DNA from: Nitrosospira sp. Nl5
GTDB taxonomy: Bacteria; Pseudomonadota; Gammaproteobacteria; Burkholderiales; Nitrosomonadaceae
DNA: 64,000 nucleotides
Assembly: GCF_900102495.1 (NCBI RefSeq)
Contig: NZ_FMVQ01000007.1
Span: 1 to 64,000, forward strand
Direction: 5' to 3'
In this document: positions 21,180 to 52,030 of the stretch, one piece after another
How positions within the stretch are numbered: position 1 is the stretch's first letter
How the letters are laid out: the number at the start of each line of letters is the position of its first letter
Position numbers and translations under genes: made by a program
Notes under the pieces: model-generated
What the model saw: the letters and a program-made list of their open reading frames with translations, nothing else
Database searches by the model: none
What the model was told of the DNA's origin: nothing

Positions 21180-21232
21180 ATAGTTGACCGAGTTAAAGGG
21201 ACTTTATATACTTGACCAACATTGTCGGGTAT
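21180..21232 (+). promoter_or_regulatory. iscR promoter with two IscR type-1-like sites
   Basis: TTGACC (21184-21189) and TATACT (21207-21212) are 17 bp apart and form a good promoter. A 25-bp site at 21208-21232 (ATACTTGACC...TGTCGGGTAT) matches the E. coli IscR type 1 consensus at about 22 of 25 positions and covers the -10. A second, half-conserved site begins 28 bp upstream at 21180 (ATAGTTGACC) and covers the -35. The same arrangement precedes the second iscR. Autorepression by [2Fe-2S]-IscR is inferred. Confidence 0.75.
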
Positions 21233-21288
21233 TAACTACGATGATTCAGCAAATTTGAACGAGATATTAATTCTGTTGGGAGCAAAAA

Positions 21289-21759
21289 ATGCGATTGACG
21301 ACCAAGGGGCGTTTTGCGGTAACGGCGATGATTGATCTCGCCTTGCACAGTGGAGAAGGGCCTGTTACGTTGGCGGGCATCAGCGAACGCCAAAAGATTT
21401 CACTATCTTATCTGGAGCAATTATTCGGAAAACTGCGACGCAATAAATTGGTAGGCAGCGTGCGTGGTCCAGGTGGTGGTTACTGTCTCGCGAAACCAAT
21501 GAGTGAAGTATCTGTCGTTGATATTATTCTGGCGGTGGATGAGCCAATTGATGCGACCCAATGCGGGGGCAAGGAAAACTGCCACAATGACCAGCGTTGC
21601 ATGACGCACGATTTGTGGGCCAGTCTCAATGCCCGGATACGTGATTACCTGGCGCTGGTCACCCTGGAGCAACTGGTGGCAAGCCCTAAGGTGAAGGATA
21701 TTGCGGTATTGCAAGACATGAGAGCATACAAGCGACCAGAAGAAACGGCGCTGGCTTAA
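21289..21759 (+). CDS. iscR: Fe-S cluster regulator IscR (copy 1)
   Basis: An Rrf2-family [2Fe-2S] regulator. The 156-residue product has the winged helix MRLTTKGRFAVTAMIDLALH with RQKISLSYLEQLFGKLR, and the cluster ligands Cys92, Cys98, Cys104 and His107 in QCGGKENCHNDQRCMTHDLW. These sit at exactly the E. coli positions. A GGGAG ribosome binding site precedes the ATG. It is followed by a cysteine desulfurase but not by iscU, iscA, hscBA or fdx. A paralogue with the same ligands is at 52031 before the SUF operon. Confidence 0.96.
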   Translation: MRLTTKGRFAVTAMIDLALHSGEGPVTLAGISERQKISLSYLEQLFGKLRRNKLVGSVRGPGGGYCLAKPMSEVSVVDIILAVDEPIDATQCGGKENCHNDQRCMTHDLWASLNARIRDYLALVTLEQLVASPKVKDIAVLQDMRAYKRPEETALA

Positions 21760-21868
21760 CCTGAGTGCGAGTGCGAGGTTTCATTGCCGATAGCGTATCG
21801 AGAGTTGGATTTTCTTTGGAATCGAGGCGCGCCAAAGAATGGCATTCCGCGAGAATGAAGAATAAGTG

Positions 21869-23023
21869 ATGCACGTATATTTCGACCATAATGCTACAAC
21901 CGCAGTCGATGACCTGGTGCTGGATGCGATGCTGCCGTATTTTCAAAAGGAGTCCGGCAATCCTTCCAGCCGCCATGCTAGCGGCATGACGGCCCGCCAG
22001 GCGGTGAACCAGGCGCGGGAGCAGGTGGCGGACGCGATTGGCGTGCAGCCCGCACAAGTGGTTTTTACCAGTGGCGGGTCGGAGGCGAATAATTTGTTCA
22101 TCCACGGGGCGGCAGGCTACCTGAAACCGGCGAGCGTTGTCGTTAGTGCGGTTGAGCATCCGTGTGTCATGCGGGCGGCGCAGGAATTGGCACGCAACGC
22201 AAACGGGAGGTGGAACTTGCGGCGCCTGGCGGTCGATAATCTGGGCCGGGTGAATCTGGCTGACGCCGATGACGCCATGAGGGAGCAACAGCCTGGCCTG
22301 GTGTCGGTGATGCTGGCGAACAATGAAACCGGTGTCATTCAGGACGTGTCCGCAGTTGCAGAGAAAGCCAGGGGACGCGGGGCATGGATGCACACCGATG
22401 CGGTACAGGCATTTGGCAAAATCCCGGTGGATTTCACCTCGCTCAAGGTACACGCCATGACGCTGTCCGCCCACAAGATTTATGGTCCCAAAGGCGCAGC
22501 AGCACTGATCATGGACAAGCGGCTATTGTTGAAACCGCTGATTTACGGGGGTGGCCATGAGAACGGGTTGCGCTCCGGTACCGAAAATGTTCCCGCCATA
22601 GTGGGATTCGGTGTCGCTTGCGGATTAGCTAAAACGCGGTTAGCGGAAAGGACTGCGCGTATTGTGGCCATGCGTTCGCGGTTGGAACAGGGCTTGGTTG
22701 AAATGGGCGCTGTTATTTTCGGTTCTGGCGCGACACGTCTTCCCAATACGTGCTACTTCGCGTTGCCGGGCATCGAAGGTGATACGCTGGTGGTTCGTCT
22801 CGACAAGGCCGGTTTCGCAGTAGCGAGCGGCGCCGCCTGCTCCAGCGTGAATCCTGGCCAAAGCCACGTGCTGGAAGCGATGGGAGTGGAGCCGATGTTG
22901 GCGCGTTGTGCGGTCCGGGTCAGCCTGGGCAGTAATAATTCCCTGGCGCAAGTGGAAACTTTTCTTAAAGCCCTGAGCAGCGTGGCGGACGAGTTGAAAC
23001 GGATGAATCTGGTTACAATTTGA
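21869..23023 (+). CDS. NifS/IscS-family cysteine desulfurase
   Basis: A PLP enzyme that removes sulfur from cysteine for Fe-S clusters, thiamine and tRNA thiolation. The 384-residue product begins MHVYFDHNATTAVDD. It carries VFTSGGSEANNLFI, SVMLANNETGVIQ, the PLP lysine in LSAHKIYGPKGAAAL, and a mobile-loop cysteine in VASGAACSSVNPGQSHVLEA. The loop differs from the SGSACTSAS-type loop of classical IscS, so this is a group II-like divergent NifS/IscS. ATG at 21869 is chosen over the GTG immediately before it. It lies about 110 bp behind iscR, probably in the same IscR-controlled transcript, and has no scaffold partner nearby. Confidence 0.9.
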   Translation: MHVYFDHNATTAVDDLVLDAMLPYFQKESGNPSSRHASGMTARQAVNQAREQVADAIGVQPAQVVFTSGGSEANNLFIHGAAGYLKPASVVVSAVEHPCVMRAAQELARNANGRWNLRRLAVDNLGRVNLADADDAMREQQPGLVSVMLANNETGVIQDVSAVAEKARGRGAWMHTDAVQAFGKIPVDFTSLKVHAMTLSAHKIYGPKGAAALIMDKRLLLKPLIYGGGHENGLRSGTENVPAIVGFGVACGLAKTRLAERTARIVAMRSRLEQGLVEMGAVIFGSGATRLPNTCYFALPGIEGDTLVVRLDKAGFAVASGAACSSVNPGQSHVLEAMGVEPMLARCAVRVSLGSNNSLAQVETFLKALSSVADELKRMNLVTI

Positions 23024-23586
23024 ATAAAGGAGTACATGCCAAAACGGGATCTTCAGTCCATGTATGCATCCAGCAGAGTCTTCGGTCTGCAGGATGGTGC
23101 ACAGATGGTGAAAGCGGTGTAGAAGCTGAATGGTCGTGCACTCAAGTTACCGCTTCTGATACGTCAAGGTTTGATTCAATGGTTTCAATCATGCATGCCC
23201 AGCGGTTTTCATATCTCCTGCAATGGTTTTCCAAGCTGCCGCACCCCTGGTAAAAGTTGCAATCTTTTCCACCATGTGATGAAATTTGAGGGCGGTATTT
23301 GTTATCTGGCAGCCTTTCCGACTTAAGGAAATCGGCTACAAAAACGCTTGACCGGTCCCTATTGCGTTTTTTTCACCAGATTGACCAGCAAGATCGTCAG
23401 AATCTATCTTCGTCCGCTCGTCTTTTCGCTTCGGTTCTTCAGGTCCAGCAAGCTGCTGGCCTGTCTGGATACTCATTTTGTTCTGACGATTTAATCTTTA
23501 TGTGTAGAATCACCTTAAAGAATCCTTTCTCGAAAATTTTTCACATCGAGAATCTCTCTTAAGAATCTCTCTAAAAGGGGTATAAG
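23024..23586 (+). other. 563-bp spacer with repeat copy B
   Basis: No gene was recognised. From about 23110 to 23325 one plus-strand frame is open without an ATG or ribosome binding site, which could be a decayed gene but resembles nothing known. The right part carries the dispersed repeat also found at 4765-4935. The last 80 bp are AT-rich and include the leader of the small TTG-start gene. Confidence 0.5.
23316..23475. repeat. Diverged dispersed repeat, copy B
   Basis: Colinear with 4765-4935 through AGGAAATCGGCT, a TTTCACC-N-CCAG stretch, CTTTTCGCTTCG and TTCTTCA-GTCC blocks, with substitutions and short indels between. Both copies translate to related short peptides (LFASVLQV here, LFASILQV there), but neither has a start signal, so they are more likely a non-coding or relic element. 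Confidence 0.55.
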
Positions 23587-23757
23587 TTGGCACAACCTAA
23601 TTTTCAATATGAGAAACGTCAAAGGGACTTAATTAAAAAGAAGAAACAAGAAGAAAAAAGGCAGCGTAAGCTTGATAAAGCCAAGATACAGTCCGATGAG
23701 AACACGGATCAGCCTCTGAATACGGCGGATACGGAAGATGCAGGAAAAACCGGATGA
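23587..23757 (+). CDS. Small basic conserved protein with TTG start
   Basis: A 56-codon gene. The TTG start is preceded by AAAGGGG at 6-nt spacing. The product begins (M)AQPNFQYEKRQRDLIKKK and continues with a Lys/Arg/Gln/Glu-rich helix (KQEEKRQRKLDKAK), then an acidic tail. From memory, proteins starting M-A-K/Q-P-N-F-x-(F/Y)-EKRQR-(E/D)L are widespread small hypotheticals in beta- and gammaproteobacteria, often with TTG starts. The function is unknown; the charge suggests RNA or ribosome contact, which is speculation. It lies alone, about 90 bp before a DUF4870-like gene. Confidence 0.8.
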   Translation: MAQPNFQYEKRQRDLIKKKKQEEKRQRKLDKAKIQSDENTDQPLNTADTEDAGKTG

Positions 23758-23844
23758 ATTCCCAGCGCGCTGCCGGACGGCGGATGGGAGGTTAGATTGT
23801 CGGAAAATCCGGCAGGGCTGGCGTAGAAGTAGAGGTATAAGGGA

Positions 23845-24252
23845 ATGCTCGAAAGCAATTCACGCATTGTATCTGTCGTCCCTCAGCGCGGCCTCGTTCG
23901 TCTCACGCATATTATTTATCTGCTGCACGGTTTCAGTGTCTTGATGGGAATTCTCGGACCGGCGCTTATTATTACAACTTTCCTCACCGGCTGGCCTTCC
24001 ATCATTGCGGTAATCATTAACTACGCAAAGCGCGATGACGTGCGTGGCACCTATCTCGATTCCCATTTCGGCTGGCAGATCCGCACATTCTGGTATACGT
24101 TGTTTTGGCTGGTGATTGCAGCGATTCTTTTCGTCACCGTGATTGGCATCATATTTGCCTACATTCTGGCTGTGGGCGCCGGTCTCTGGGTGTTCTACCG
24201 CATTATCCGCGGCTGGACCGCACTCAATGACGGCAAGTCTATGCCGGCCTGA
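23845..24252 (+). CDS. DUF4870-like small membrane protein
   Basis: A 135-residue protein with about three membrane segments. The first is in IIYLLHGFSVLMGILGPALI, the second in WYTLFWLVIAAILFVTVIGI and the third in IIFAYILAVGAGLWVFYRII. Between them a hydrophilic loop reads INYAKRDDVRGTYLDSHFGW, and the C-terminus has RGWTALNDGKSM. These are the conserved features of DUF4870-type membrane proteins found next to many proteobacterial genes. No biochemical role is known. It is not clearly linked to its neighbours. Confidence 0.75.
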   Translation: MLESNSRIVSVVPQRGLVRLTHIIYLLHGFSVLMGILGPALIITTFLTGWPSIIAVIINYAKRDDVRGTYLDSHFGWQIRTFWYTLFWLVIAAILFVTVIGIIFAYILAVGAGLWVFYRIIRGWTALNDGKSMPA

Positions 24253-24761
24253 ACGACAGGCTGTCAGCGCCGTTCCCGTAATCCATCACATTTCGTCGTC
24301 ATTTCCTATACGGCTTGATTGCAGCCTGCCAGGGACATGGTCCCGAATATCGGGATATTTTCATTCGTCATTGAGACTGTTGATTTCTCTCATTCGTATC
24401 CGCGACTAGCACTCCTGCTTTTCCATTGGCGAGCAGGCATAAACCGACTTCTTCGCCTTATGTGTGTCGCCGTACAGTCTTGAGTAATCGCGCTTATTAA
24501 TATGACACGATCTTCAGCCACTTTTTAAGTGGAGGTAGTTCCAGAACGTCAACCTGTCGCACATACTTGAACAGGCGCAGGGGGAACGGAAGCGTAAGCT
24601 CGTACGCTGCGAGTGGAAGGTCGGCAGCGGCTAGAATAGTTAGGCCGGGTGGTAAGAGAAAAGGTGAGTCGCCTCCTTTTTTTACCGATCTTCGACGAAG
24701 AAGATTCATGGATAAAAAAAGAGTCTGAAGCGCTGCTAGTGCTGATATTGAGAGGTCCGTC
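24253..24761 (+). other. 509-bp spacer upstream of the Crp/Fnr regulator
   Basis: It holds the GTGTGTC-CGTACA motif at 24460-24476 but no gene I can support. A minus-strand 88-codon frame (24497-24763) lacks a ribosome binding site and known motifs. A long untranslated leader for the downstream regulator is possible. Confidence 0.5.
24460..24476 (+). promoter_or_regulatory. GTGTGTC-N2-CGTACA motif upstream of the Crp/Fnr regulator
   Basis: ATGTGTGTCGCCGTACA reads toward the regulator at 24762 and matches the motif before the DUF883 gene at 15 of 17 positions. It lies about 285 bp before the start codon, so it would sit upstream of a long leader. Confidence 0.4.
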
Positions 24762-25577
24762 ATGTCCCTGTCCCAAAATCCGAGACAAAGCCCGAAGCAG
24801 AACAGGATACTTGCAGCACTATCCCTTGGCGACTATACGCGCCTATTACCTCTTCTTGAATTTGTGCACTTGCCGGTAGGCCATGCGATCTACGAGCCCG
24901 GCCTTCCGATTAATCATTTGTATTTTCCCGCCAGTTGTATTGCCGTGCGCCTGTATGAGATGGAAGACGGGTCATCCACACAAATTGGAGTCATTGGCAA
25001 CGAGGGCTTGGTCGGTATCCCTTTTCTCCTTGGTAGCGAAACCAGTCCGGCACGCGTGATCGTGCAAAGCGCAGGCAATGCTTACCGCATTAAGGCAAGT
25101 TTTCTCAAAAAGGAATTTGAGGCAAGTGGAGAGTTACGGCGGCTTCTTTTGCGGTTCGCACAGGCGCTGATAATCCAAACAGAGCAGATTGCGGTTGGTA
25201 ACCGATACCATACCATCGACCAACAGTTGAGCTATTTCCTGCTGATGAATCTGGATCGCCTGTCCGGTAACGAACTTCATGTCACGCACGAACAAGTTGC
25301 AATTATGCTTGGTGTCCGCCGGGAAAGCATAACGGTAGCCGCAAATAAATTACAAATGGCCGGCGCGATCCGTTGCAGGCGCGGTCATCTTGCGGTAGTG
25401 GACCGCCGCCAGCTGGAAGCTAGCGCAGGCGAGAGTTATATGCTGGTAAGGAAGGAGTACGAGCGCTTGCTGGGGCCTTTCCCCTCGGCTATCAACATTG
25501 CTTCCGACGACGTTTCGCAAAAAACGACCGAAGGATATTTTCAAGAAACCAGGCAGAGCTCTTTAATCAAAACCTGA
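24762..25577 (+). CDS. Crp/Fnr-family transcription regulator
   Basis: The 271-residue product has an N-terminal cyclic-nucleotide-binding-like beta barrel (about 25-145; VGHAIYEPGLPINHLYFPAS is the start of the barrel). A long dimer helix and a C-terminal helix-turn-helix follow (HVTHEQVAIMLGVRRESITV). It lacks the N-terminal cysteines of FNR, so it is not a classical oxygen sensor. The barrel does not show a clear cAMP-binding Arg-x-Ser. GAGAGG precedes the ATG. It belongs to the large group of stand-alone stress-type Crp regulators. The next gene, a peroxidase-like cytochrome 370 bp downstream, is a possible target. Confidence 0.85.
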   Translation: MSLSQNPRQSPKQNRILAALSLGDYTRLLPLLEFVHLPVGHAIYEPGLPINHLYFPASCIAVRLYEMEDGSSTQIGVIGNEGLVGIPFLLGSETSPARVIVQSAGNAYRIKASFLKKEFEASGELRRLLLRFAQALIIQTEQIAVGNRYHTIDQQLSYFLLMNLDRLSGNELHVTHEQVAIMLGVRRESITVAANKLQMAGAIRCRRGHLAVVDRRQLEASAGESYMLVRKEYERLLGPFPSAINIASDDVSQKTTEGYFQETRQSSLIKT

Positions 25578-25946
25578 TGCCATTGCAGATGGTTCCGATT
25601 ATTTTCTTCTGAGTCAGAAGCCTGCCGCAAATTGCTGCAAAGCGCCAGTACCCGTCCTTTTGACCGATAGAGTCCTATTGCTCTCCAAAATCCTTAATTC
25701 TCCTCATTCCGTCGTTTTTTGTTAATTCGCTGTCGGCGGGGCTAGCCCTGCCATTTTCCCACGCTGCTTCATTTCCCAGCCGCGATCGGGGAAATATTCG
25801 GGCCTAGTGTGTGCGGTGTCGTACAGATATGTCTCCATTAATGAGGAAGAATATGTAGTCGGCGTTACCAGCCGGATACCTGTAGCCGGATACCCATTTG
25901 GACATTATCCAAAAGTTGAAATACCAAGTCGATAATGGAGACCATG
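25578..25946 (+). other. Spacer before the di-haem cytochrome gene
   Basis: No gene is seen. It contains the recurring CGTACA motif (25809-25825) and a short direct repeat, CCGGATACC twice with a 5-bp gap near 25872-25894. Either could be a control site for the cytochrome gene. Confidence 0.5.
25809..25825 (+). promoter_or_regulatory. GCGGTGTCGTACA motif upstream of the di-haem cytochrome
   Basis: The sequence reads GTGTGCGGTGTCGTACA toward the cytochrome gene, about 120 bp before its start. It shares GCGGTGT and CGTACA with 29776-29790 (minus) and CGTACA with the other two copies. Confidence 0.35.
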
Positions 25947-27491
25947 ATGAAAAAGATGAATGTTCTGATACTAGGTTTGGGGCTGGTCAGTTTTGGCGCG
26001 GGAATGAACAGCGCCACGGCCCAGAACGACGACGAAGCGCGCTCGGCAAGCGCCCAATCGCGCGACGCTGTCGTCAGGGCTCAGACAGTGCGCGAGACCT
26101 CCGTGACGCGGCCCGAACAGAAGAAGAGCGAACACGACCGTTCCAACGTCTTTGCCGCGCCGAATGCGATGCCTTCTTCCCCCGCTTTTGAGAATCAGCC
26201 TGATGATGGAAAAATACTAGGATTCGATTTTTATCGTGATCCCTTGAATGCCAAGAAACCGATGCAAACGTTTGAAGAGACCATGAAAGCCGACGTGGCA
26301 GAGCGTGCCAAGGTCATGAAAACGCAGCATCAGCTACTGTTACGCCGATATGATCTGACACCAAGGCTTGATCCGGAGGCAAAGATGTCGCGCGGGAAGC
26401 CTTTGGCCGTGGGACCCACTGCTCGTCTAGCAGCCGGGATGAGCTGGGAAAAGCTGGCCAGTATGTCTCCGTCGGACATACGTAGCCAGAAGGTATTTCC
26501 ATACCCCTCATTGCCTCATCCTAAACAATCGCCCGGCGGACAGGTTTTCCCTCAAGTTCAGGTTAATATGTTCCCGCGGCTGGAGCGGTTTGACGTCGAG
26601 TTTGATTTGCCCGACGCGTTCCTGCCCGAGTTTCCGCCCGCTATTTTTCTTCAAACCCGGCCTGAGCTGGGAGATGTTTCGCGCGGAGAGATTGTCTCGA
26701 TCAACAATTTTTACCGTTTGTTCAAGGATATTCTGACGCCTGTGCAGTTGGACGGCCTGAGAATGCTGCTGACCCCTTTTCCACAAGAAGAGTTTAACCC
26801 TACCGATGATCGTAAAAGTAAGGAACCCAGCCTGGGGGTTACCTGTTTTGACTGCCATGTGAACGGCCATACGACGGGACAGTTCCATCTAAACCCTGAT
26901 AACAGACCGGAGCAACGACGTTTCCGGCTGGATACCACCAGCCTGCGCGGACTGTATAACCAGCAGATTCATGGTTCGAAGCGCAGCTTGCGCTCGGTGG
27001 AGGACTTCACCGAGTTTGAGTTCCGCACAGCCTATTTCAATGGTGATCCAATTCATGCCATGAAAAAGGGTTTCACGATTTTCGATCGAATCCATGTGAG
27101 CCATATGGCACAGCTGCAGAACATGCTGGATTTCCCCCCCGCGCCAAAACTGGATAGCCAAGGGCGGCTCGATCCGGCCAAGGCAAACGAGAAGGAACTC
27201 CGCGGCGAGAAACTCTTTTTCGGGAAAGGCCAGTGTGCGGGTTGCCATAAGCCGCCCGCTTTCCTTGACCATCAAATGCATGATCTGAAGCTTGAGCGTT
27301 TTGTTAATGAGCCGGGTGACGGGCCAATGAAAACTTTCACCTTGCGGGGCATTAAAGACAGTCCCCCTTATCTGCACGATGGCCGTTTATTAACCCTCGA
27401 AGATACCGTTGAGTTCTTCAATCTGGTGTTGCAACTGAAGCTTACCGACGAGGAGAAGTCTGATCTTGTCGCCTACATGCGGCAATTATGA
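25947..27491 (+). CDS. Di-haem c-type cytochrome, peroxidase/MauG-like, with long N-terminal domain
   Basis: A secreted protein of about 514 residues. A signal peptide (MKKMNVLILGLGLVSFGAGM, then NSATA) is followed by roughly 270 residues without a haem motif. Then come two CXXCH sites: CFDCH at about 300-304 and CAGCH at about 430-434. The C-terminal part (ELRGEKLFFGKGQCAGCHKP, FTLRGIKDSPPYLHDGRL, LTDEEKSDLVAYMR) is typical of bacterial cytochrome c peroxidases and MauG-like enzymes. The substrate is unknown. ATG triplets at 25935, 25944 and 25947 are all possible; the last has GGAG at 6-nt spacing. galU follows after 83 bp. The N-terminal domain, rich in Pro and charged residues, is unusual for a peroxidase. 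Confidence 0.85.
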   Translation: MKKMNVLILGLGLVSFGAGMNSATAQNDDEARSASAQSRDAVVRAQTVRETSVTRPEQKKSEHDRSNVFAAPNAMPSSPAFENQPDDGKILGFDFYRDPLNAKKPMQTFEETMKADVAERAKVMKTQHQLLLRRYDLTPRLDPEAKMSRGKPLAVGPTARLAAGMSWEKLASMSPSDIRSQKVFPYPSLPHPKQSPGGQVFPQVQVNMFPRLERFDVEFDLPDAFLPEFPPAIFLQTRPELGDVSRGEIVSINNFYRLFKDILTPVQLDGLRMLLTPFPQEEFNPTDDRKSKEPSLGVTCFDCHVNGHTTGQFHLNPDNRPEQRRFRLDTTSLRGLYNQQIHGSKRSLRSVEDFTEFEFRTAYFNGDPIHAMKKGFTIFDRIHVSHMAQLQNMLDFPPAPKLDSQGRLDPAKANEKELRGEKLFFGKGQCAGCHKPPAFLDHQMHDLKLERFVNEPGDGPMKTFTLRGIKDSPPYLHDGRLLTLEDTVEFFNLVLQLKLTDEEKSDLVAYMRQL

Positions 27492-27574
27492 GACCGCTTT
27501 TACGACCAGCCGGATCTTTGCAGTTCAATGATGGCGTCATCCGATCAAAAGACGAAATAACCAAGGAGATATTT

Positions 27575-28615
27575 ATGAGCATTTCCGCGACACCAGCACC
27601 GATAAACCGGAAGGAAGCACTTTCATTGAATGGCTCGTCTTTTCGCAAGCCCGTGAAAGCGGTACGTAAGGCAGTATTTCCGGTCGCGGGACTGGGTACC
27701 CGCTTTCTGCCCGCGACAAAGGCAATCGCTAAAGAAATGTTGCCCATCGTGGACCGCCCGCTCATTCAGTATGCTGTGGACGAAGCGGCGGCGGCTGGTA
27801 TTGAAGAGATAATTTTTGTAACGCATCGCAGCAAGCGCGCCATCGAGGACCACCTGCATCGCGCAGTGGAACTTGAAGGCGAGCTAACGTCGCAGGGAAA
27901 ATTTGCTTCATTGAAAATGTTACGGCAGTTAATACCGTGTGGTATTAAGTTCAGTTTTGTCCGCCAGGAAGAGCCCAGAGGACTGGGGCATGCAATTCTT
28001 TGCGCACGGCATCTGATTGGTGACGAGCCTTTTGCCGTGCTGCTTCCGGATGATCTGATTAATGGCCAGCCCCCGGCACTGGCACAGATGATTTCCCAGT
28101 ATGAACGAGTGCCGAACAGCTTGGTGGCTATCCGATCGGTACCTCGCGAAGATACCCGCCGCTATGGTATTGTTGACGCGGTCCACCCGGATGCGGAAAG
28201 TTTTAGTACGAGGATTCGCAGCGTGGTGGAAAAACCTTCTCCTGACACAGCGCCATCGACCATGGCTATCGTAGGACGCTATGTTCTTTCACCCGCAATT
28301 TTCGAATGCATTGCAAATCTGGACCCAGGGATTGGAGGAGAAATTCAGCTCACGGACGGAATTTCACGTCTTCTGAAATCGGAACCGGTGATGACTTACC
28401 GCTATCAGGGTAAACATTATGACTGCGGGAGTAAAGCAGGCTTCCTGGAAGCGACGATGGCATACGGCTTGCAGCATCCGGAGGTAGGCAGGGAATTTCG
28501 TGAAACATTGCTGCGCGTCGCGCAACAACTCATTAGCGAGACTTCGTGTTCCTCTGATTCCGTAAGTAAAAACGAGCTGGATACGCGGCCGGCTGCAATG
28601 TTAAAGAGTGCCTGA
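27575..28615 (+). CDS. galU: UTP-glucose-1-phosphate uridylyltransferase
   Basis: Makes UDP-glucose for polysaccharide and lipopolysaccharide synthesis. The 346-residue product has the nucleotide motif FPVAGLGTRFLPATKAIAKE followed by MLPIVDRPLIQYAVDEA, and QEEPRGLGHAIL, GEIQLTDGI and KHYDCGSKAGFLEA. The open frame begins earlier, but an AAGGAG ribosome binding site fixes the ATG at 27575. A 25-residue N-terminal extension precedes the family core. It may be co-transcribed with the di-haem cytochrome. A hairpin follows at 28653. Confidence 0.95.
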   Translation: MSISATPAPINRKEALSLNGSSFRKPVKAVRKAVFPVAGLGTRFLPATKAIAKEMLPIVDRPLIQYAVDEAAAAGIEEIIFVTHRSKRAIEDHLHRAVELEGELTSQGKFASLKMLRQLIPCGIKFSFVRQEEPRGLGHAILCARHLIGDEPFAVLLPDDLINGQPPALAQMISQYERVPNSLVAIRSVPREDTRRYGIVDAVHPDAESFSTRIRSVVEKPSPDTAPSTMAIVGRYVLSPAIFECIANLDPGIGGEIQLTDGISRLLKSEPVMTYRYQGKHYDCGSKAGFLEATMAYGLQHPEVGREFRETLLRVAQQLISETSCSSDSVSKNELDTRPAAMLKSA

Positions 28616-28652
28616 CTATAACGATGTTGTGCCAAATGTTCTGGACAAGCAT

Positions 28653-28679
28653 GATCTGCCATAGGGTTATAGGCAGGTC
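28653..28679. terminator. Hairpin between convergent galU and psd
   Basis: GATCTGCC (28653-28660) pairs with GGCAGGTC (28672-28679) with one G-U pair, and the loop can extend the stem. There is no T-run on either side, so it is at best a factor-assisted bidirectional terminator. Confidence 0.35.
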
Positions 28680-28705
28680 CCATTGACTACTTCCAGTTGA
28701 CTATC

Positions 28706-28739
28706 TGTAGGCGGGTGAAGCGAGTAGCGTACCCCATGC
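28706..28739. repeat. REP-like palindrome, copy 1
   Basis: TGTAGGCGGGTGAAGCGA followed by GTAGCGTACCCCATGC is a diverged form of the palindrome at 59079-59110 read on the other strand (TGTAGGATGGGTAAAGCGA, then AGCGTAACCCATC). Elements of this TAGGATGGG..AAGCG..ACCCATC type are common intergenic repeats in proteobacteria. Confidence 0.5.
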
Positions 28740-28785
28740 TGCGCTCATAAGGGCGTGTAAATAGAAATGGTTCGCTCGACCGGCT

Positions 28786-29652: not shown

Positions 29653-29775
29653 GTTGGGATACCTGAAGCAAAAATAGTGGGGAATTATAATAGCTTGCGT
29701 TAATTAAGTCTTAATATGATTGAAATGATCATGCCTGCCGGTTTACGAATATAAAACCGATCAAATCGGAACTTG

Positions 29776-29790
29776 TGTACGACACACCGC
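29776..29790 (-). promoter_or_regulatory. GCGGTGTGTCGTACA motif upstream of psd
   Basis: On the minus strand the sequence is GCGGTGTGTCGTACA, close to the copy at 25809-25825. It lies in the divergent spacer between psd and the CheB-CheR hybrid and faces psd. Either gene could be the target. Confidence 0.35.
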
Positions 29791-29912
29791 GTTGATTCGA
29801 ATGTCTAACGTTTTTGCTTGCACGTGCTACACTGTTTTTTTGTACCGCCTTAAGTATCGTGCTGTCGGGCTATCGGGCAGTTAGGCTATCAGCTGCTATA
29901 GGTTATTTCTCT

Positions 29913-35857: not shown

Positions 35858-35874
35858 TGTTAATTCGGAGAGTT

Positions 35875-35964: not shown

Positions 35965-36032
35965 TTTTCTACTTTTCTATTTTTCTTGCCGGTTAGCGGA
36001 ATCTGTATTTTTTCCGCATGAATATGCCGAAG

Positions 36033-37161: not shown

Positions 37162-37168
37162 AACCTAG

Positions 37169-37603: not shown

Positions 37604-37624
37604 AATGATTTCTCCTTGAAGTGA

Positions 37625-39190
<1,566 letters not shown>

Positions 39191-39236
39191 CGTTTACCTT
39201 ATATATCATTACGCAAAAAATTGGTTCCGCAGGACG

Positions 39237-40169: not shown

Positions 40170-40279
40170 TTCTTAATCCTCCATGCGGTCTTCAACTAGG
40201 AGTAAAGCGCACCCATCATTCGGCTTATTATTTCCATTCCATCAAACCCATTTTATCCAATCCCATCGCTTGACTGCAA

Positions 40280-40520: not shown

Positions 40521-40529
40521 GGATCTCCA

Positions 40530-44950: not shown

Positions 44951-45116
44951 ATGCTTGATTTTGATTATCCTGAAGACGACGGGAATATCCTAATCTCCTC
45001 CGTCATATCTTCTATCGCTTGCTGCGTCGTAAATTGACCACGCATTATGCGTAATGCCCGCTTCCGGGGCAGGATTAGTTATTGAAGATTACAGGCAACC
45101 AAGGTTTTTGCCAGAA

Positions 45117-46514
45117 TCACTCCGGTTGCCATCCGCCTCCCAGCGCTTTATAAAGCTGAACGACAGACACCAGGTGAAAGCGGTGCGTGGCTGTAAGGGC
45201 AAATTCGGCACTGAACAGATTTCGCTTGGCAAGAAGCACATCCACGTAGCTCGTAATACCCCCGTGGTAGCGAAGGTCGGATACATGCAAAGCTGAGCGC
45301 AGCGCTTCGACCTGCTGCTGCTGGGCCTTGCGTTGCTCACTAACGGTGCGAATCGCCACCAGGGCATCTTCGACCTCTTTGAATGCCACAAGGATGGTTT
45401 GCTCGTATTGGGCCAGTACCTGTCGTGCCTGGGCTTCCGCGGCACGCTGCTCGAAACCCAGGCTTTGCGCATTGAGCAGTGGTCCAGCCAACCCGAGTCC
45501 GCCTGCCCCAAATTCGCTTCCGGAGAGCAGCAGCTTCGACAGCGCCGGGCTGGCCACCCCTAGAAAACCGGTGATCGAGAGCTTTGGAAACCGGGCCGCC
45601 TTGGCCATTCCGATTCTCGCCGTCGCGGCTGCCAGCGTCTGTTCCGCCTGGAGAATATCGGGGCGCCGCTGCAGCAGTTCGGAAGGAAGACCGGCCGGCA
45701 CGTCGGGCGGCATAAGCTGCTCCGTCAGAACGCTGCCTCGCTGGATCGGAACTGAATTTTTCCCTAACAGCACGCTCAGTTCATTTTCCTTTTGCGCCAT
45801 TTGCCGTTCGAGTTCCGCCACTCTGGTGGCCGCATTGGCTCGCTCCGCCTCAAACTGATCCAGGTCGAGCCTGGAAATCAATCCTCCCCGCAGTCGCGCC
45901 TGGGCAATGGCGACCGATTCTTCCCACGATGACAGGGCACGTCGCGCAATATCCAGCTGCATGTCAAACTGTAAAAGATCGAAATAGGATTGTGCTACCG
46001 AGCTCACTAACGTAAGCACCACCGCCCGGCGATTCTCTTCACGGGCCATCAGTTCGGCAAGGGCCGCCTGGTTGGAGCGGCGGATCCTGCCCCAGATATC
46101 CAGTTCCCAGTTCAGATTGGCGTGCCCGAAATAACTGTAAGGCGTCGGGAATCCGCGGATAAGGAACCCGCCAAGGGTACCGAACGCCGGGGCGTTGGCG
46201 TTCACCTCGAATTTGGGAAGGAAATCCAGGCTTGCGATGGTGCTGCGCGCCTGGAGCTCTTCTACACTTGCCACCGCTTGCTTGAGATCTTTATTTTCGG
46301 CCAAAGCCTGGTGGATGAGCCGCTGCAGTTCTTCGTCGCGCAGGAGTTCCCACCAGGGGAGATTGGCGATGGATTGCCCTTCCATTTGCGTCATGCGAAA
46401 CTTTTCGGACGTCTCGATCGGAGGGCGGATATAGTCTGGCCCCATGGCGCAGGACGCGATCAGCAGGGTTGAGAGCAATGATAGTGTTCTGATCCACGCG
46501 TTATAGTGTCGCAT
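45117..46514 (-). CDS. Outer-membrane efflux channel lipoprotein (NodT/OprM family)
   Basis: A TolC-like trimeric channel. The 465-residue product carries a lipobox (LLIASC, then AMGPDYIRPP), and NLPWWELLRDEELQRLI starts the first repeat. Two homologous coiled-coil halves follow, the second introduced by LPSELLQRRPDILQAEQTL. It lies between the two pumps and overlaps RND2 by one base. As the only OMF gene in the array it probably serves both RND1 and RND2. A GGCAACC/GGTTGCC inverted repeat (45094-45130) surrounds its stop codon. Confidence 0.93.
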   Translation of the reverse strand: MRHYNAWIRTLSLLSTLLIASCAMGPDYIRPPIETSEKFRMTQMEGQSIANLPWWELLRDEELQRLIHQALAENKDLKQAVASVEELQARSTIASLDFLPKFEVNANAPAFGTLGGFLIRGFPTPYSYFGHANLNWELDIWGRIRRSNQAALAELMAREENRRAVVLTLVSSVAQSYFDLLQFDMQLDIARRALSSWEESVAIAQARLRGGLISRLDLDQFEAERANAATRVAELERQMAQKENELSVLLGKNSVPIQRGSVLTEQLMPPDVPAGLPSELLQRRPDILQAEQTLAAATARIGMAKAARFPKLSITGFLGVASPALSKLLLSGSEFGAGGLGLAGPLLNAQSLGFEQRAAEAQARQVLAQYEQTILVAFKEVEDALVAIRTVSEQRKAQQQQVEALRSALHVSDLRYHGGITSYVDVLLAKRNLFSAEFALTATHRFHLVSVVQLYKALGGGWQPE

Positions 46515-49500
46515 TATGCTGTTTCCTGTTGCACATTTTCGGCTGGTTTGTCTGCATGCTTGCGCGTAAGCCAGGTAAAGAACAGAGGGATGAAGATGGT
46601 CGCGACGAACGTGGCGAGCAGCATGCCGCCAAATACGCCGGTACCCATGGAACGGCGGGCAGCCGCTCCGGCCCCGGTGGCGATGACCAGCGGCACGATC
46701 CCCAGCACAAACGCCATGGAAGTCATGACGATTGGACGAAAGCGCAAGCGCGCGGCTTCAACCGCCGCTTGCGCAACCGGCATTCCCTCCCGCATTTTCT
46801 GGCTGGCGAACTCCACGATCAAAATGGCGTTCTTCGCGGCCAGGCCGATCAGCGTGATCAAGCCCACCTGGAAGTAGATATCATTGGGCATTCCACGCAC
46901 CAAAATGGCAAGCAACGCGCCTGTCAGCGCAAAGGGCACAGCCATGATCACGGCCAGCGGAAGTCCCCAGGTTTCAAATTGCGCGGCCAGGATGAGAAAT
47001 ACCATAATGATGGCGAAACTGAAAGCAAGGATGGCCGCGGAACCGGTGCGTTTTTCCTGATAGGCCTGTGCTGTCCAGGCAATCTGGTAGTTCCCGGGCA
47101 AATTCTTTGCCGCAATCTCTTCCACCAGCTTGATGGCCTCGCCCGAGCTTACCCCCGGTGCCCCGCTCCCCATTATTTTTGCGGAAAGAAGCCCGTTATA
47201 ACGCTCAAGCTGCTCGGCACCGACGATAGTGCTCATGGTGCTCACCGCCGACAGGGGCACCATCGCTCCGGACTGGGAACGTACGTACACCCTGCCGAGA
47301 TCTTCCGGTTGCATGCGGTATCGGGATTCCGCCTGCAATTGCACGCGGTAGGTTCTGCCGGCCTTATTGAAATCGTTGATATAGAGTGAACCCATGGTGC
47401 TTTGCAAAGTCGCGTACAGATCAGCGATCAACACGCCTTGCGAAATCGCCTTTGCTTCATCCACTTCAATAAAGAATTGCGGTACCGTCGGGCGGAAGAA
47501 AGTGTTGATGCCGGCAAGACGCGGCTCCTGGTTCAGGGCTTCGATGAGATGGTTCACGGCATCCGATAATTGCAGGGGATCCGAGCCGCCGCGGGCTTGC
47601 ACATAAACTTCAAAACCACCCGCGGTCCCCAGACCGCGAATAGCGGGCGGATTAAATGCTATCGCTATGCCGTCGGGCTGCTGCATGCCGATACCGAACA
47701 GCTTGTTGACGATATCTTCGGCTGTAGCGGTACGCTCGGACCAGTCTTTGAATGTCACGAACATGGTTGCCGAGCTGGTTTTATTGCCGCCGCCGATCAG
47801 ATCGAAACCGTTCACCACGAACTGGTGGGAGACCGCCGGATCTTCCGCAATGGCGGCACGCACGGCTTCAGCCGTTTTGGTTGTTCGGGCCAGCGTTGCC
47901 CCATCGGGCAGGATTGTTGCGGCAACCACATACCCTTGATCTTCAGGCGGCACGAAGCTATCGGGCACGGTTTTAATCAGATAGGCGGCGAGGCCGACGA
48001 TTGCCGCGAACGCGAAGGTGCCGATAATGGTATGACGCAAGGTGAGGCTGACCGTCTCGGTATAGAAATTGGTCAACCGCCGGAACCCCTTGTTGAACGC
48101 ACGAAAGAACGCGGATTCGCCATGCGTGGTTTTCAGTATGATGGCGCACAGCGCCGGCGTGAGCGTCAGCGCCACAATACCGGAAATGACCACCGCGACG
48201 GCAACAGTCACGGCAAACTGGCGATAGAGCTCGCCGGCAATGCCGCCCATGAAGGCCACCGGCACAAACACCGCGCACAACACCAACACAATCGCGACCA
48301 CGGCACGCGAAACCTGCTCCATGGACTTAATGGCGGCTTTCATCGGCGACAGATTTTCTTCGTCCATCAAACGCTCGATGTTTTCCAGCACGACAATCGC
48401 ATCGTCCACCACAATGCCGATGGACAGCACCATGGCAAAGAGCGTGAGCGTATTGATGGAGAAGCCAAATAGCCACAAGCCGGCAAAGGTGCCAATCAGG
48501 GAAATGGGTACCGCGACAATGGGAATCAGCGTAGCGCGCCAGCTTTGCAGAAACAGGTAGACCACCAGTATGACCAGGATCATCGCCTCGCCGAGAGTTT
48601 TGACCACCTCCCACATGGAGGCTTTGACGAAAAGGCTGGTATCGTAAGGCACAACATAATCCATCCCTTCAGGGAAATATGCCTTCAACTCATCCATCTT
48701 TGCGACGAGAGCGTCCGCCGTCTCCAACGCATTGGCGCCGGGCTGCAGAAAGATGGGAATCCCCGCGCCGGGCTGACCGTTAAGCGCAGTGCGAACGTCA
48801 TAACTTTGCGCCCCAAGTTCAATACGCGCGACATCCTTGAGATAAAGAGCGCCTTCCGGCCCGTCGGCACGCAGGATGATATTGCCGAATTGCTCAGGTT
48901 CCAGCAGCCGGCCCCTGGCGTTGACCGTATAAACCAGTTGCTGATGGGCCGGTGCCGGTTCCTGGCCTATCTTGCCTGCCGCATACTGCGCATTTTGCGA
49001 TCGAATAGCCGCAGCAATATCTGTTGTGGTGACTCCTAACTGCGCCATGCGATCAGGGCGCAGCCAGATACGCATGGAATAATCCATTCCTCCGAAAACC
49101 ATCGCCTCGCCGACGCCTTTGACGCGTTTCAGTTCATCCAGTACGTTAAGCGTGGCGTAGTTGCTGAGAAACAGGGGATCATATTTCCCCTTCTCCTTGG
49201 AGACGAGCATAAAGACAAGAAGAATATCGTTGGAACGCTTTTGTATGATCAGGCCGGTTCGCCGGACCTCATCCGGCAAGCGTGGCAGCGCAATATTCAC
49301 GCGGTTACTGACATTGAAAGTCGCCTGATCGACATCCGTACCAACTTCAAAGGTCGCGGTAATCGTCAACGTGCCGCTCGAGTCGGCGCTGGAACTGAAA
49401 TAAAGCAGGTCTTCAACGCCGCTTAATTGTTCTTCAATCGGCGCCGCCACGGTCTTAGCCAGGGTATCGGCGCTCGCCCCCGGAAAAGTGGCGGTTATCA

Positions 49501-49630
49501 GGACAGTCGGAGGCGCGATCTGCGGATACTGGGCAATGGGCAGCTGCATCGCTGCCGCCAACCCGGCCAGAACGATGATAATGGAGACGACCGACGCAAA
49601 AATTGGCCGCGTGATAAAGAACCTGGTCAT
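46514..49630 (-). CDS. RND efflux pump, inner-membrane transporter (HAE1 family), RND2
   Basis: A 1038-residue AcrB-like transporter. The N-terminus is MTRFFITRPIFASVVSIIIV, the proton-relay pair is in GIVVDDAIVVLENIERLM, and the Lys is in AAKNAILIVEFASQK. The C-terminus ends FTWLTRKHADKPAENVQQET. It overlaps MFP2 by 4 bp and the OMF gene by 1 bp. Its last 250 bp are duplicated in decayed form at 40280-40520. With MFP2 and the divergent TetR gene it resembles acrAB/acrR or mexAB-oprM systems. Confidence 0.94.
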   Translation of the reverse strand: MTRFFITRPIFASVVSIIIVLAGLAAAMQLPIAQYPQIAPPTVLITATFPGASADTLAKTVAAPIEEQLSGVEDLLYFSSSADSSGTLTITATFEVGTDVDQATFNVSNRVNIALPRLPDEVRRTGLIIQKRSNDILLVFMLVSKEKGKYDPLFLSNYATLNVLDELKRVKGVGEAMVFGGMDYSMRIWLRPDRMAQLGVTTTDIAAAIRSQNAQYAAGKIGQEPAPAHQQLVYTVNARGRLLEPEQFGNIILRADGPEGALYLKDVARIELGAQSYDVRTALNGQPGAGIPIFLQPGANALETADALVAKMDELKAYFPEGMDYVVPYDTSLFVKASMWEVVKTLGEAMILVILVVYLFLQSWRATLIPIVAVPISLIGTFAGLWLFGFSINTLTLFAMVLSIGIVVDDAIVVLENIERLMDEENLSPMKAAIKSMEQVSRAVVAIVLVLCAVFVPVAFMGGIAGELYRQFAVTVAVAVVISGIVALTLTPALCAIILKTTHGESAFFRAFNKGFRRLTNFYTETVSLTLRHTIIGTFAFAAIVGLAAYLIKTVPDSFVPPEDQGYVVAATILPDGATLARTTKTAEAVRAAIAEDPAVSHQFVVNGFDLIGGGNKTSSATMFVTFKDWSERTATAEDIVNKLFGIGMQQPDGIAIAFNPPAIRGLGTAGGFEVYVQARGGSDPLQLSDAVNHLIEALNQEPRLAGINTFFRPTVPQFFIEVDEAKAISQGVLIADLYATLQSTMGSLYINDFNKAGRTYRVQLQAESRYRMQPEDLGRVYVRSQSGAMVPLSAVSTMSTIVGAEQLERYNGLLSAKIMGSGAPGVSSGEAIKLVEEIAAKNLPGNYQIAWTAQAYQEKRTGSAAILAFSFAIIMVFLILAAQFETWGLPLAVIMAVPFALTGALLAILVRGMPNDIYFQVGLITLIGLAAKNAILIVEFASQKMREGMPVAQAAVEAARLRFRPIVMTSMAFVLGIVPLVIATGAGAAARRSMGTGVFGGMLLATFVATIFIPLFFTWLTRKHADKPAENVQQETA

Positions 49631-50850
49631 GAGGATTCATGCCTCTGTCCGCTTGCCTGCTGATCCGCTTTCGGTGGAGCGGGGGATTCGGCGGGCGCTT
49701 CTCCCGGCGCATGGGGTGATACGAGGGTACCAGGGCGAAGTTTGATAATATTATCGACGATCACTTTATCGCCAGGTTTCAATCCGTCAAGAATTACCCA
49801 GTCTTTGCCGATCCAGCGACCAGCTGTGACCGTGCGTATCGTCGCCTCGTTCTTTTCGTTGATGACATAGACATTTTTGCCAAGATCAGAGGTCTGCACC
49901 GCAACCTGGGGGACGAGGAAAACGCCGTCGCGTTGCCCCGTGGTGACGCGCGCACGCACGAATTGCCCTGGCAGCAAGCGCTGATCCGGATTATCGAATG
50001 TTGCGCGTAATTGCTGCGTGCCAAGCGTGGGGTCGATTTTACTGGCGGCAAAATTCAGTTCCCCTGCTTTTTCATACTCCGTGCCATCCGCCAATATCAA
50101 CGTTACCAGCTTTACCCTTTGCTCATTCAGGGGGCCGCCGATCTGCGCCAGTTCGTTATCGGAAAGGCTGAAGCGCACCCATATGGGTGATAGCTGGACA
50201 AGCGTCGTCAACAGGCTGTTATACGCTTCCACCAGTGCCCCTTCAGAGAACTGAAAGCGGCCTGATATGCCATTCACAGGCGCTGTTACGGTGGTATATG
50301 AAAGATTAAGCTCGGCGTCGCGTACCCGAACTTCAGCCTGCTGCAGCGCCGCCGTGGCGATCGCATTATCAGAGGCGGCATTGTCGTATTCCCGTTGACT
50401 GATAGCTTGCGTGTCGAGCAGATCGCGCAAGCGGTTTTCCTCGCGCTCCGTCTGTACGATGCGGGCTTTCTGCTCGGCGAGCTGTGCCTTTGCTTGGGCG
50501 AGGGCATTCTGATAGGGCACGGGGTCGATCAGAAACATGGGCTGCCCTGCTTTTACCGCGGCCCCCTCATCGTACAGGCGTCTGAGCAAAATACCGCCCA
50601 CCCTGGGCCGTATTTCGACCTCCTTGGCGCCTTCGGTTTGCGCAACCGCTTCGGCACTAATCGGCACGCTGGTCGGTTTTACTTCGATTATGCTGACGGG
50701 AAGAGCCATGCCGCCGGGGGGCTGATCCGGCGCTTGGTCGTTTTTGCCACACGCGCCCAATACAGCGCTTATAATCAGTGCAATAGTTGCTTTCGAATAG
50801 ATAATCGCGGATAAATCCCGAAGTTTGTTTTTATATCTGGCAACTGCCAT
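49627..50850 (-). CDS. RND efflux periplasmic adaptor lipoprotein, MFP2
   Basis: The first gene of the pump array. The 407-residue product has a basic N-terminus, a hydrophobic segment ending LGAC (lipobox), a lipoyl domain (EVEIRPRVGGILLRRLYDEG and TVTAPVNGISGRFQFSEG), a coiled-coil hairpin, a beta-barrel (RFSLSDNELAQIGG) and a Pro/Ala-rich C-terminal tail. It is AcrA/MexA-like. An AcrR-type operator lies just upstream, so a TetR repressor probably controls the whole five-gene array. Confidence 0.93.
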   Translation of the reverse strand: MAVARYKNKLRDLSAIIYSKATIALIISAVLGACGKNDQAPDQPPGGMALPVSIIEVKPTSVPISAEAVAQTEGAKEVEIRPRVGGILLRRLYDEGAAVKAGQPMFLIDPVPYQNALAQAKAQLAEQKARIVQTEREENRLRDLLDTQAISQREYDNAASDNAIATAALQQAEVRVRDAELNLSYTTVTAPVNGISGRFQFSEGALVEAYNSLLTTLVQLSPIWVRFSLSDNELAQIGGPLNEQRVKLVTLILADGTEYEKAGELNFAASKIDPTLGTQQLRATFDNPDQRLLPGQFVRARVTTGQRDGVFLVPQVAVQTSDLGKNVYVINEKNEATIRTVTAGRWIGKDWVILDGLKPGDKVIVDNIIKLRPGTLVSPHAPGEAPAESPAPPKADQQASGQRHESS

Positions 50851-50897
50851 TTTTTAACTCCAATACCGGTAAGCAAAACAGCTCTGGACGAAAGAAC

Positions 50898-50923
50898 TTG
50901 CATACATTCTTGTATGTATGTAA
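50898..50923. promoter_or_regulatory. AcrR-like operator in the MFP2/TetR spacer
   Basis: CATACAT (50901-50907) and ATGTATG (50914-50920) flank six bases, with TT and AA extending the symmetry. The E. coli AcrR site has the same ACATACAT and ATGTATGT halves. Its position between the divergent pump array and the tetR gene supports repression of both. Confidence 0.7.
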
Positions 50924-50975
50924 ATTATATACAAAAGATGATCGATGTAAATAGCGGATAAGGACTATTTAAACG

Positions 50976-51593
50976 GTGGTTCGAAAAACTAAAGAAAATG
51001 CGGAGTTAACCCGGCAACGTCTTATCGAAGCGGCACGCCAGGTTTTTCTGACGCGAGGCGTCAGCCGCACTACGATGGAACATATTGCCTGTCAGGCCGG
51101 TGTCACGCGTGGCGCAATTTATTGGCATTTCAACAATAAAATCGATCTGTTTCAAGCGATGCGCGAACAGGTGTTCCTGTCATTGATTGATCGCATGGAC
51201 GATACTTTGCTGATTGAAGGTTCCGAAGACCCGCTGACATGTATCGAGAATTTCTTGTGCGGCACCATCCAGTTACTCACCGAGAGTATGGAGACCCGGC
51301 AGATTTACGAAATCATGATGATCAAGTGCGAATACGTAGACGAGTTCGCCGCCGTCCTGCAGCAAATTTTATTGAATTGCTCCGGCATTGAAGAAAAGCT
51401 GAAACTGGTTTATGAGCGTGCAAAAGCGCAAGAGCAGCTACATCTTTCCCACGAACCCTCTCAGTTAGCCACGGATACGCATCTATTCTTTATCGGCCTG
51501 CTGCATATGTGGGTGAAAGATACGGATGGCAACCGGTTTCGTTACCAGGCGATTAAATTGGTTAAAGCACATATGCGGCTTCGCCATCGCTAG
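50976..51593 (+). CDS. TetR/AcrR-family repressor of the RND array
   Basis: A 205-residue regulator. The N-terminal helix-turn-helix (TRQRLIEAARQVFLTRGVSR and IACQAGVTRGAIYWHFNNKI) is close to AcrR/TtgR. The C-terminal helical domain would bind drugs. The start is GTG, giving MVRKTKENAE, much like AcrR MARKTKQEA. It is divergent from MFP2 with an AcrR-like palindrome between. Ligand-dependent derepression of the pumps is inferred from the family. Confidence 0.92.
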   Translation: MVRKTKENAELTRQRLIEAARQVFLTRGVSRTTMEHIACQAGVTRGAIYWHFNNKIDLFQAMREQVFLSLIDRMDDTLLIEGSEDPLTCIENFLCGTIQLLTESMETRQIYEIMMIKCEYVDEFAAVLQQILLNCSGIEEKLKLVYERAKAQEQLHLSHEPSQLATDTHLFFIGLLHMWVKDTDGNRFRYQAIKLVKAHMRLRHR

Positions 51594-52030
51594 CCTCATG
51601 GCGGACTTAAAGAATCGGGGAAAGAAACGAGGGCGACGCGGATTTTGAAGAAAACGCATATTCTTCCTCCTGGCGTCCAGGACCGAACGCCTCGAGATAT
51701 GAACGCGCAGCTCTTTTGCAGCTGATTCTCCTCCAAGTCCGACAGTTGTCGGCCGGCTCTTCAATTCAAATCATCATTCAAGTTTGCGTTCGTTGATTTG
51801 CCCGACGGCGATACTTGCAACTTCGCGCTTGCTTCGCGGCATAAATCGCGGTGATAGCAATACTCATTGCGTTTTCGATTACTTGAAAACCCGTTGCTTG
51901 CCCCCTTTTTATAGTTGACTAAATCGATCAAGTATCTTATAGTTGACCAAATCAGTCGTGTATTAACTGTCTGGTCTTTATTTTAATATCTCTATTCCAT
52001 TGAAACTACGAGAGTGAAGAGGAGTTTATC
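51594..52030 (+). other. 437-bp spacer between tetR and the SUF operon
   Basis: The left 300 bp hold no gene I can support; a CCGAC-AGTT-GTCGG hairpin lies near 51739-51752. The right part contains the IscR-controlled promoter (51911-51963) and the iscR leader. Confidence 0.6.
51911..51963 (+). promoter_or_regulatory. iscR2-suf promoter with tandem IscR type 1 sites
   Basis: Two 25-bp sites at 51911-51935 (ATAGTTGACT...TCAAGTAT) and 51939-51963 (ATAGTTGACC...GTCGTGTAT) each match the E. coli IscR type 1 consensus at about 23 positions. They are 28 bp apart. TTGACT (51915-51920) and TATAGT (51938-51943) form a promoter with a 17-bp spacer, so one site covers the -35 and the other starts in the -10. 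Confidence 0.85.

Follow-up and report, generated by a model that had tools for sequence, protein, structure and literature searches.

Two genes for the repressor IscR lie in the first 64,000 nucleotides of contig NZ_FMVQ01000007.1 of Nitrosospira sp. Nl5 (assembly GCF_900102495.1), a stretch referred to here as the window, and each is preceded by a pair of IscR-like sites 28 bp apart. Why should the spacing be the same at both genes, and why 28 bp? An earlier note on this DNA, made from its letters alone, had placed the pairs at 21180-21232 and 51911-51963 and read them as the shared promoter design of a cross-regulated two-repressor circuit; its coordinates and its spacing are exact at both loci. 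The answer that we consider probable is that operators and core promoter share letters, that 28 bp is the spacing imposed by a sigma-70 spacer, and that both promoters are negative-feedback promoters within a closed two-repressor loop. The host is a soil ammonia oxidiser with a genome of 3.03 Mb in 34 contigs.

Two promoters with one layout

Sites were scored as matches out of 25 to the E. coli-type type-1 consensus, ATASYYGACTRWWWYAGTCRRSTAT, as printed in PMC6599224 (cited here and below for the part of it that was available), and genomes were scanned with the same type-1 pattern. The elements of the two promoters, termed PiscR1 and Psuf, are as follows.

21180..21204, + strand: PiscR1 upstream IscR site, 17 of 25; left half intact (ATAGTTGAC), right half 4 of 10
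21184..21189, + strand: PiscR1 putative -35 hexamer TTGACC, within the upstream site
21207..21212, + strand: PiscR1 putative -10 hexamer TATACT, its final five bases being the start of the downstream site
21208..21232, + strand: PiscR1 downstream IscR site, 22 of 25
51911..51935, + strand: Psuf (iscR2) upstream IscR site, 23 of 25
51915..51920, + strand: Psuf putative -35 hexamer TTGACT, within the upstream site
51938..51943, + strand: Psuf putative -10 hexamer TATAGT, its final five bases being the start of the downstream site
51939..51963, + strand: Psuf downstream IscR site, 23 of 25

At both promoters the sites are 28 bp apart, the hexamers are separated by 17 bp, and a 25-bp type-1 site overlaps the core promoter. 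The sites thus lie, as the earlier note had it, over the -35 and -10 of TTGACY-17-TATASY-like promoters at both loci, which by sequence makes one shared design, and its estimate of about 23 of 25 for the SUF-linked pair agrees with the scores of 23 and 23. Within the 3.03-Mb genome the consensus is found at three or fewer mismatches in exactly three places, the two Psuf sites and the PiscR1 downstream site, and the reversed pattern, used as a control, in none. TTGACC-17-TATACT and TTGACT-17-TATAGT are the sole sigma-70-like matches of their regions, each at 10 of 12 positions.

Conservation in Nitrosospira and its family

The comparison set comprised 41 genomes: the host's own, 22 of the same genus, two of the same family and 16 of the same order. 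It supplied 24 suf-type and 24 iscR1-type promoters, to which locus L066, from a named Nitrosomonadaceae bin, was added; the 27 iscR1 rows come to 25 distinct promoters, since L064 and L067 duplicate G003 and G017. The spacing is conserved in relatives that have both loci. All 24 suf promoters carry the pair at 28 bp (upstream sites 22-24 of 25, downstream sites 21-24), as do 23 of the 25 iscR1 promoters; the remaining two, in G019 and G020, have it at 29 bp, with an 18-bp spacer and the same kind of hexamers. A T stands directly 5′ of the downstream site in 25/25 iscR1 and 24/24 suf promoters. In genome G014 the iscR1 promoter is 460 nt upstream.

The two sites of PiscR1 differ in quality. 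The downstream site scores 20-22 across the 25 promoters, and the upstream site 15-20 in 23 Nitrosospira, 20 in G023 and 22 in L066. Its left half matches at 9-10 of 10 positions everywhere; for its right half the figure is 3-6 of 10 in the 23 Nitrosospira, with G023 at 6, level with the best Nitrosospira, and L066 at 8. The right half averages 4.9 of 10, against 3.3 in shuffled DNA and 8.5 in the 24 suf promoters (half-site averages and invariance refer to 21 of the 24 iscR1 promoters, L033, L050 and L051 being omitted). The description of the second pair as one good and one decayed site therefore holds for the scores, 22 and 17, but not as local decay: the poor right half is genus-wide, occurring in 23/23 Nitrosospira, which rules out decay specific to this species. 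L066 and G023 are sisters (98/84). Relatives tentatively favour a good upstream site as the ancestral state, with a gain in L066 as the less favoured alternative.

Across the 23 Nitrosospira genomes, matches at three or fewer mismatches are confined to these two promoters, save one stray in G017. The reversed control gives none in 22 of the genomes and one place in G007. G018 is without a match at this threshold because iscR2 was not found there and its iscR1 site has four mismatches.

A block reading GG--TTTAT 5′ of the PiscR1 -10 (21198-21207) is also kept in other Nitrosospira, and the IscR consensus does not explain it.

The spacing rule and its reach

In these promoters the fifth base of the upstream site is the first of TTGAC, while the first base of the -10 directly precedes the downstream site. 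The spacing of the sites must then equal 4 + 6 + spacer + 1, so that 28 bp corresponds to a spacer of 17 bp and 29 bp to one of 18 bp. The reach of this rule was examined in a panel of 90 iscR promoters from outside the family, mostly labelled betaproteobacteria and made up of 76 named loci and 14 same-order loci; the named loci are the best 80 of at least 586 IscR1 relatives minus four Nitrosomonadaceae, and the panel leans to IscR1-like proteins. A pair required both sites to score 19 or more, and the best-scoring pair of each promoter was counted. Best pairs lay 28 bp apart in 21 promoters, 29 bp in 11, 42 bp in 10, 30 bp in four, 25, 31 and 41 bp in two each and 27 bp in one; 35/90 promoters had a single site and no pair, and 2/90 had no site of 19 or more. 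Over 200 shuffles of the panel, pairs at 28 or 29 bp averaged 0.0, and the shuffled promoters held no pairs.

The T that would begin the -10 does not belong to the 25-mer. It stands directly 5′ of the downstream site in 32/32 panel pairs at 28 or 29 bp and of the site in 10/35 single-site promoters, in which A is commonest at that place (21/35). Fisher's test gives a p of about 1e-10, for species that are related and not independent. Pairs at other spacings have the T in 16/21; it is thus not limited to pairs at 28 or 29 bp, as expected where a downstream site can still begin in a -10.

Since 32 of the 90 other iscR promoters have their best pair at 28 or 29 bp, the design is not tied to genomes with two repressors. 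Many related bacteria share it, and it is best seen as a betaproteobacterial form of an established type, the type-1 iscR promoter under autorepression, and as a modest variation on known biology. Its value lies in a simple rule for an odd spacing: two copies of the site 28 or 29 bp apart, with a T before ATA(G/C)T, would themselves make up a promoter. The rule offers a cheap test for true IscR promoters in betaproteobacteria, and predicts workable spacings of 27-29 bp, whereas spacings of 25 and 42 bp would need another promoter position. In the titles and abstract openings of the papers listed by our searches of the open PMC library we found no description of the 28-bp rule or of the overlap with cysE described below, and novelty is not claimed.

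The 12 panel promoters with a best pair 41-42 bp apart are L082, L083, L091, L097, L101, L102, L106, L113, L120, L131, L132 and L133. The inspected members of this class have TTGAC within the upstream site's right half; a few members hold a 29-bp pair as well.

Comparison with known iscR promoters

Two tandem type-1 sites, scoring 24 and 22 of 25, also stand 5′ of iscR in E. coli. They are 25 bp apart, and TTGACC of the downstream site may serve as the -35; if so, the second site lies 5′ of the promoter and, in contrast to Nitrosospira, the -10 falls outside the operators. The isc promoter of Pseudomonas aeruginosa (sites A and B) resembles PiscR1 in pairing one strong with one weak type-1 site and is repressed by cluster-loaded IscR, as is predicted for PiscR1, but its sites too are 25 bp apart, at -67 to -43 and about -42 to -18; the paper puts the strong site in the interval from -35 to -10, and the weak one 5′ of the -35 (PMC6599224). 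A betaproteobacterial case is Comamonas testosteroni S44, in which two putative type I motifs are bound by IscR in electrophoretic mobility shift assays and autoregulation is negative; its sites are 30 bp apart and head an iscRSUA operon, and the available part of PMC4683182 mentions no overlap of them with promoter hexamers. The iscR promoters of Aromatoleum, Thauera, Zoogloea, Sulfuritalea and others have pairs at 28 or 29 bp with TTGAC or TTGAT in the upstream site and a TATAGT- or TATACT-like -10 at the downstream site. In those genera IscU lies behind iscR, whereas the Nitrosospira promoters lead to suf and to a lone desulfurase.

A probable cysE remnant in the iscR1 promoter

The least expected part of the analysis is a probable remnant of cysE. 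It is likely that in many betaproteobacteria the upstream operator and -35 of iscR overlap the end of cysE, in that ATA GTT GAC followed by a stop reads Ile-Val-Asp-stop, and that Nitrosospira has kept those codons, after the loss of that cysE, as its -35 and operator half-site. The feature concerned is:

21156..21188, + strand: probable remnant of the cysE C-terminus, reading FDPGHWNKIVD

A CysE-like open reading frame (ORF) ends within 260 nt 5′ of iscR at 61/76 of the named panel loci, and at 38/76 the stop codon of that ORF falls within an IscR site scoring at least 19. The tails of these 61 ORFs end IVD in 38 cases and MVD in 14, and the ORF of L108, taken as an example, scores as CysE over the cut-off. 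Among the same-order genomes, 14 have a cysE over the cut-off, and one tail was read from each by tblastn. Where cysE adjoins iscR, 4/5 tails end IVD (G038, G028, G029 and G035; G032 does not); where it is apart from iscR, 1/9 does (G030, a genome 68% complete and with no IscR match), two others ending in the related LNKLVE (G031) and LNKLVDD (G027) and six being unlike. On these counts the IVD tail goes with the cysE-iscR junction mostly, not strictly.

None of the 25 Nitrosomonadaceae genomes has a cysE over the cut-off, 23/25 having a lower-scoring serine acetyltransferase-like match elsewhere (E 1e-48 or better, or near), and in the window the interval from trmJ to iscR1 holds no cysE body. 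Probable remnants elsewhere read FDSGYLNKIVD-stop (G018) and FDSFYLNKIVD (both G019 and G020); in other iscR1 promoters little more than (N/D/S)KIVD remains. A template of the CysE tail, covering the eight codons before IVD, scored a mean of 3.64 out of 7 in the 25 iscR1 promoters, with 6 or more in 6/25, compared with 0.33 in 24 iscR2 promoters; for one suf-type row, L026, the reading was taken from the downstream site. The mean of 5000 shuffles was 0.80, with a maximum of 5. The template was composed after CysE tails had been viewed and the promoters are related, making these figures a strong description and not a clean test. The end of a lost gene has apparently been kept as regulatory DNA.

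An in-frame remnant of the CysE C-terminus was also noticed in L028, L050, L051 and L066, where that cysE is likewise lacking; for L066 this covers the locus only.

The two IscR proteins

Against the TIGR02010 (IscR) cut-off of 207.55 bits, IscR1 scores 212.1 and IscR2 204.8, just short of it. The [2Fe-2S] ligands C92, C98, C104 and H107, which E. coli IscR has as well, are all present in both window proteins, as the earlier note had stated, and in 28/28 IscR1 and 24/24 IscR2 rows (three of the 28 being second copies from the same genomes). The recognition helix ISLSYLEQLF is identical in E. coli IscR, IscR1, IscR2 and all rows. With ligands and helix shared with E. coli IscR, it is plausible that both proteins recognise the same sites and therefore regulate each other's gene; to judge from the proteins, IscR1 and IscR2 are likely to act on each other's promoter as well as on their own.

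Trees were built from 75 and 49 of 144 IscR rows. In the tree of 49, IscR1 and 16 other IscRs form a clade (97/94). Of these 16, 15 have IscU 3′ of iscR, and the remaining one, L070, is on a contig too short for IscU to be read. IscR2 stands near SUF-linked IscRs with weak support (81/75). A single clade of IscR1 and IscR2 is rejected (p-AU 0.034), for a group chosen after the first tree and with a long E. coli outgroup branch. This is modest evidence against an origin of iscR1 and iscR2 by recent duplication within the family, an idea that it weakens.

A proposed circuit and its alternatives

In the circuit that we propose, TTGAC of the upstream site would serve as the -35, and a T with the first five letters of the downstream site, ATA[G/C]T, as the -10, so that cluster-loaded IscR on either site should shut out RNA polymerase. 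PiscR1 would have a full operator over its -10 and a half-site over its -35. When clusters are short, IscR would lose its cluster and leave the type-1 sites, so that iscR1-nifS and the suf genes would be derepressed. Because ligands and helix are shared and strong type-1 sites occur only at these two promoters, IscR1 and IscR2 probably both act on both, closing a two-gene loop. According to the available part of PMC8561392, every promoter with a known type I site is repressed and type I sites are bound by holo-IscR only, while a -35 embedded in an IscR site has been demonstrated for type II sites. PMC6956336 (likewise available in part) cites an IscR box predicted in Rhodobacter, at -36 to -19; neither that part nor the available part of PMC8593673 deals with tandem spacing, and PMC5343134 does not mention IscR.

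Several observations weigh against this account. Shuffled DNA gives 0.4 and 0.6 sigma-70-like hexamer pairs per region, so the hexamers alone are weak and it is conservation that carries the promoter case. At 204.8 bits IscR2 is marginally under the TIGR02010 cut-off. In the panel, 21/53 pairs are best at another spacing, and among the single-site promoters 19/35 lack a -10 match of 4 of 6 at 16-18 bp from the TTGAC position; the rule is accordingly common, not universal. The other 16/35, which have a match of 4-5 of 6 to TATAAT at that distance, count in its favour. The 25-bp spacing in E. coli and P. aeruginosa means, moreover, that binding behaviour established there is not directly transferable.

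The main alternative concerns the upstream site of PiscR1, which may simply be a -35 with its flanks, the downstream operator doing all the work and the likeness to a half-site being inherited and unused. We give this only slightly less than an even chance. It would account for a right half that averages 4.9 and stays at 3-6 in all 23 Nitrosospira, sigma-70 alone would keep TTGAC, and the weaker upstream site of P. aeruginosa contributes little, its mutation having a small effect only (PMC6599224). The sequence AAAATAG 5′ of TTGAC is, however, invariant or nearly so in 21 iscR1 promoters, which exceeds what a -35 needs, and the family member L066 has a good upstream site of 22/25. A different reading of the same poor half is that a real operator lies 13 bp further upstream and includes TTGAC in its right half. 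Some Accumulibacter, Azonexus and Dechloromonas have this arrangement, with sites 41-42 bp apart, the class that makes up 12/90 of the panel. The shifted register scores 14-20 in Nitrosospira and averages 17.6 of 25 over the 25 promoters, against 18.1 for the 28-bp register; yet it reaches only 16/25 in the window, and its score is partly built in, the halves of the motif being alike. We think it improbable.

Two further alternatives accept the sites and dispute the circuit or the cause of the spacing. The roles of the repressors may be split, with these promoters left to one IscR while the second works chiefly at other places or by way of type-2 sites, without a true cross-regulated pair. That the two look like old paralogues, with IscR1 among ISC-linked IscRs (97/94) and one clade rejected at p 0.034, would fit such a division, but every row has the same helix and ligands and the genome has no further type-1 site within three mismatches, and we regard it as unlikely. 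That the 28 bp serves cooperation of two IscR dimers along the helix, and not a promoter spacer, seems to us the most improbable of these proposals: in P. aeruginosa a high-affinity site, once bound, does promote binding at the other one (PMC6599224), but best-pair spacings of 25, 27, 28, 29, 30, 31 and 41-42 bp would seem to share no common helical phase, and the T before the downstream site accompanies the pairs at 28 and 29 bp. The circuit set out above, with a sigma-70 spacer as the cause of the spacing, remains the preferred account. The earlier note also expected the isc copy to be less tightly repressed because of its upstream site. Such a difference may exist, but in P. aeruginosa mutation of the weaker upstream site had a small effect only (PMC6599224), at a promoter where that site is 5′ of the -35. 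Any looser control of iscR1-nifS could, as a conjecture, be favoured by a constitutive need for the NifS-like protein, for example in tRNA thiolation.

Gene content of the two loci

The genes concerned are as follows.

20354..21079, + strand: trmJ-like RNA methyltransferase gene, 5′ of iscR1
21289..21759, + strand: iscR1, encoding an IscR over the TIGR02010 cut-off
21869..23023, + strand: gene for a NifS-like cysteine desulfurase, 3′ of iscR1, under the NifS and IscS cut-offs
52031..52534, + strand: iscR2, encoding an IscR (204.8 bits against 207.55); first gene of the suf cluster
52611..58934, + strand: suf gene cluster, with an IscA/SufA-type carrier, sufB, sufC, sufD, sufS, sufU and a protein with a NifU C-terminal stretch

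The host's own genome (G000) has two IscR matches only at E 0.001 or better, IscR1 and IscR2. The earlier note had called iscR1 ISC-linked, a label that the gene content does not bear out. No canonical IscU was found in the 25 Nitrosomonadaceae genomes by a search with PF01592 (NifU_N), which in G000 has a single match, SufU of the suf cluster (E 9e-20), and which detects canonical IscU in ten same-order genomes at E 4e-52 or better. HscA over its cut-off is likewise found in none of the 25; the 8/41 positive genomes are all same-order. The desulfurase beside iscR1 scores 288 bits against the IscS cut-off of 643 and 378 against the NifS cut-off of 531, and at E 1e-20 G000 has no other protein like it. 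Membership of iscR1 in an ISC operon is thereby rejected. The suf genes exceed their cut-offs (bits/cut-off: sufB 638/346, sufC 358/213, sufD 293/222, sufS 585/475, sufU 150/92.5). The corrected picture is that the Fe-S assembly machinery appears to be SUF only, plus a separate iscR1-desulfurase unit.

Some minor observations may be added. The last gene of the suf cluster (58374-58931) has its NifU C-terminal stretch after an N-terminal part without a match, and trmJ stands 5′ of iscR in a Klebsiella record also. The same-family genome G024 (L176) has one iscR match, suf-linked, and a NifS-like gene elsewhere; in the 1.4 kb 5′ of that gene no IscR site reaches a score of 19. In other betaproteobacteria (L057, L069, L076, L078, L085, L086, L088, L089, L103, L112 and L128) iscR is followed in one stretch by nifS-like, iscA-type and sufB genes, so that the two units of Nitrosospira, iscR1-nifS and iscR2-suf, are joined there. 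In a class sample of 185 genomes, an IscR match at E 1e-30 is present in 124/185.

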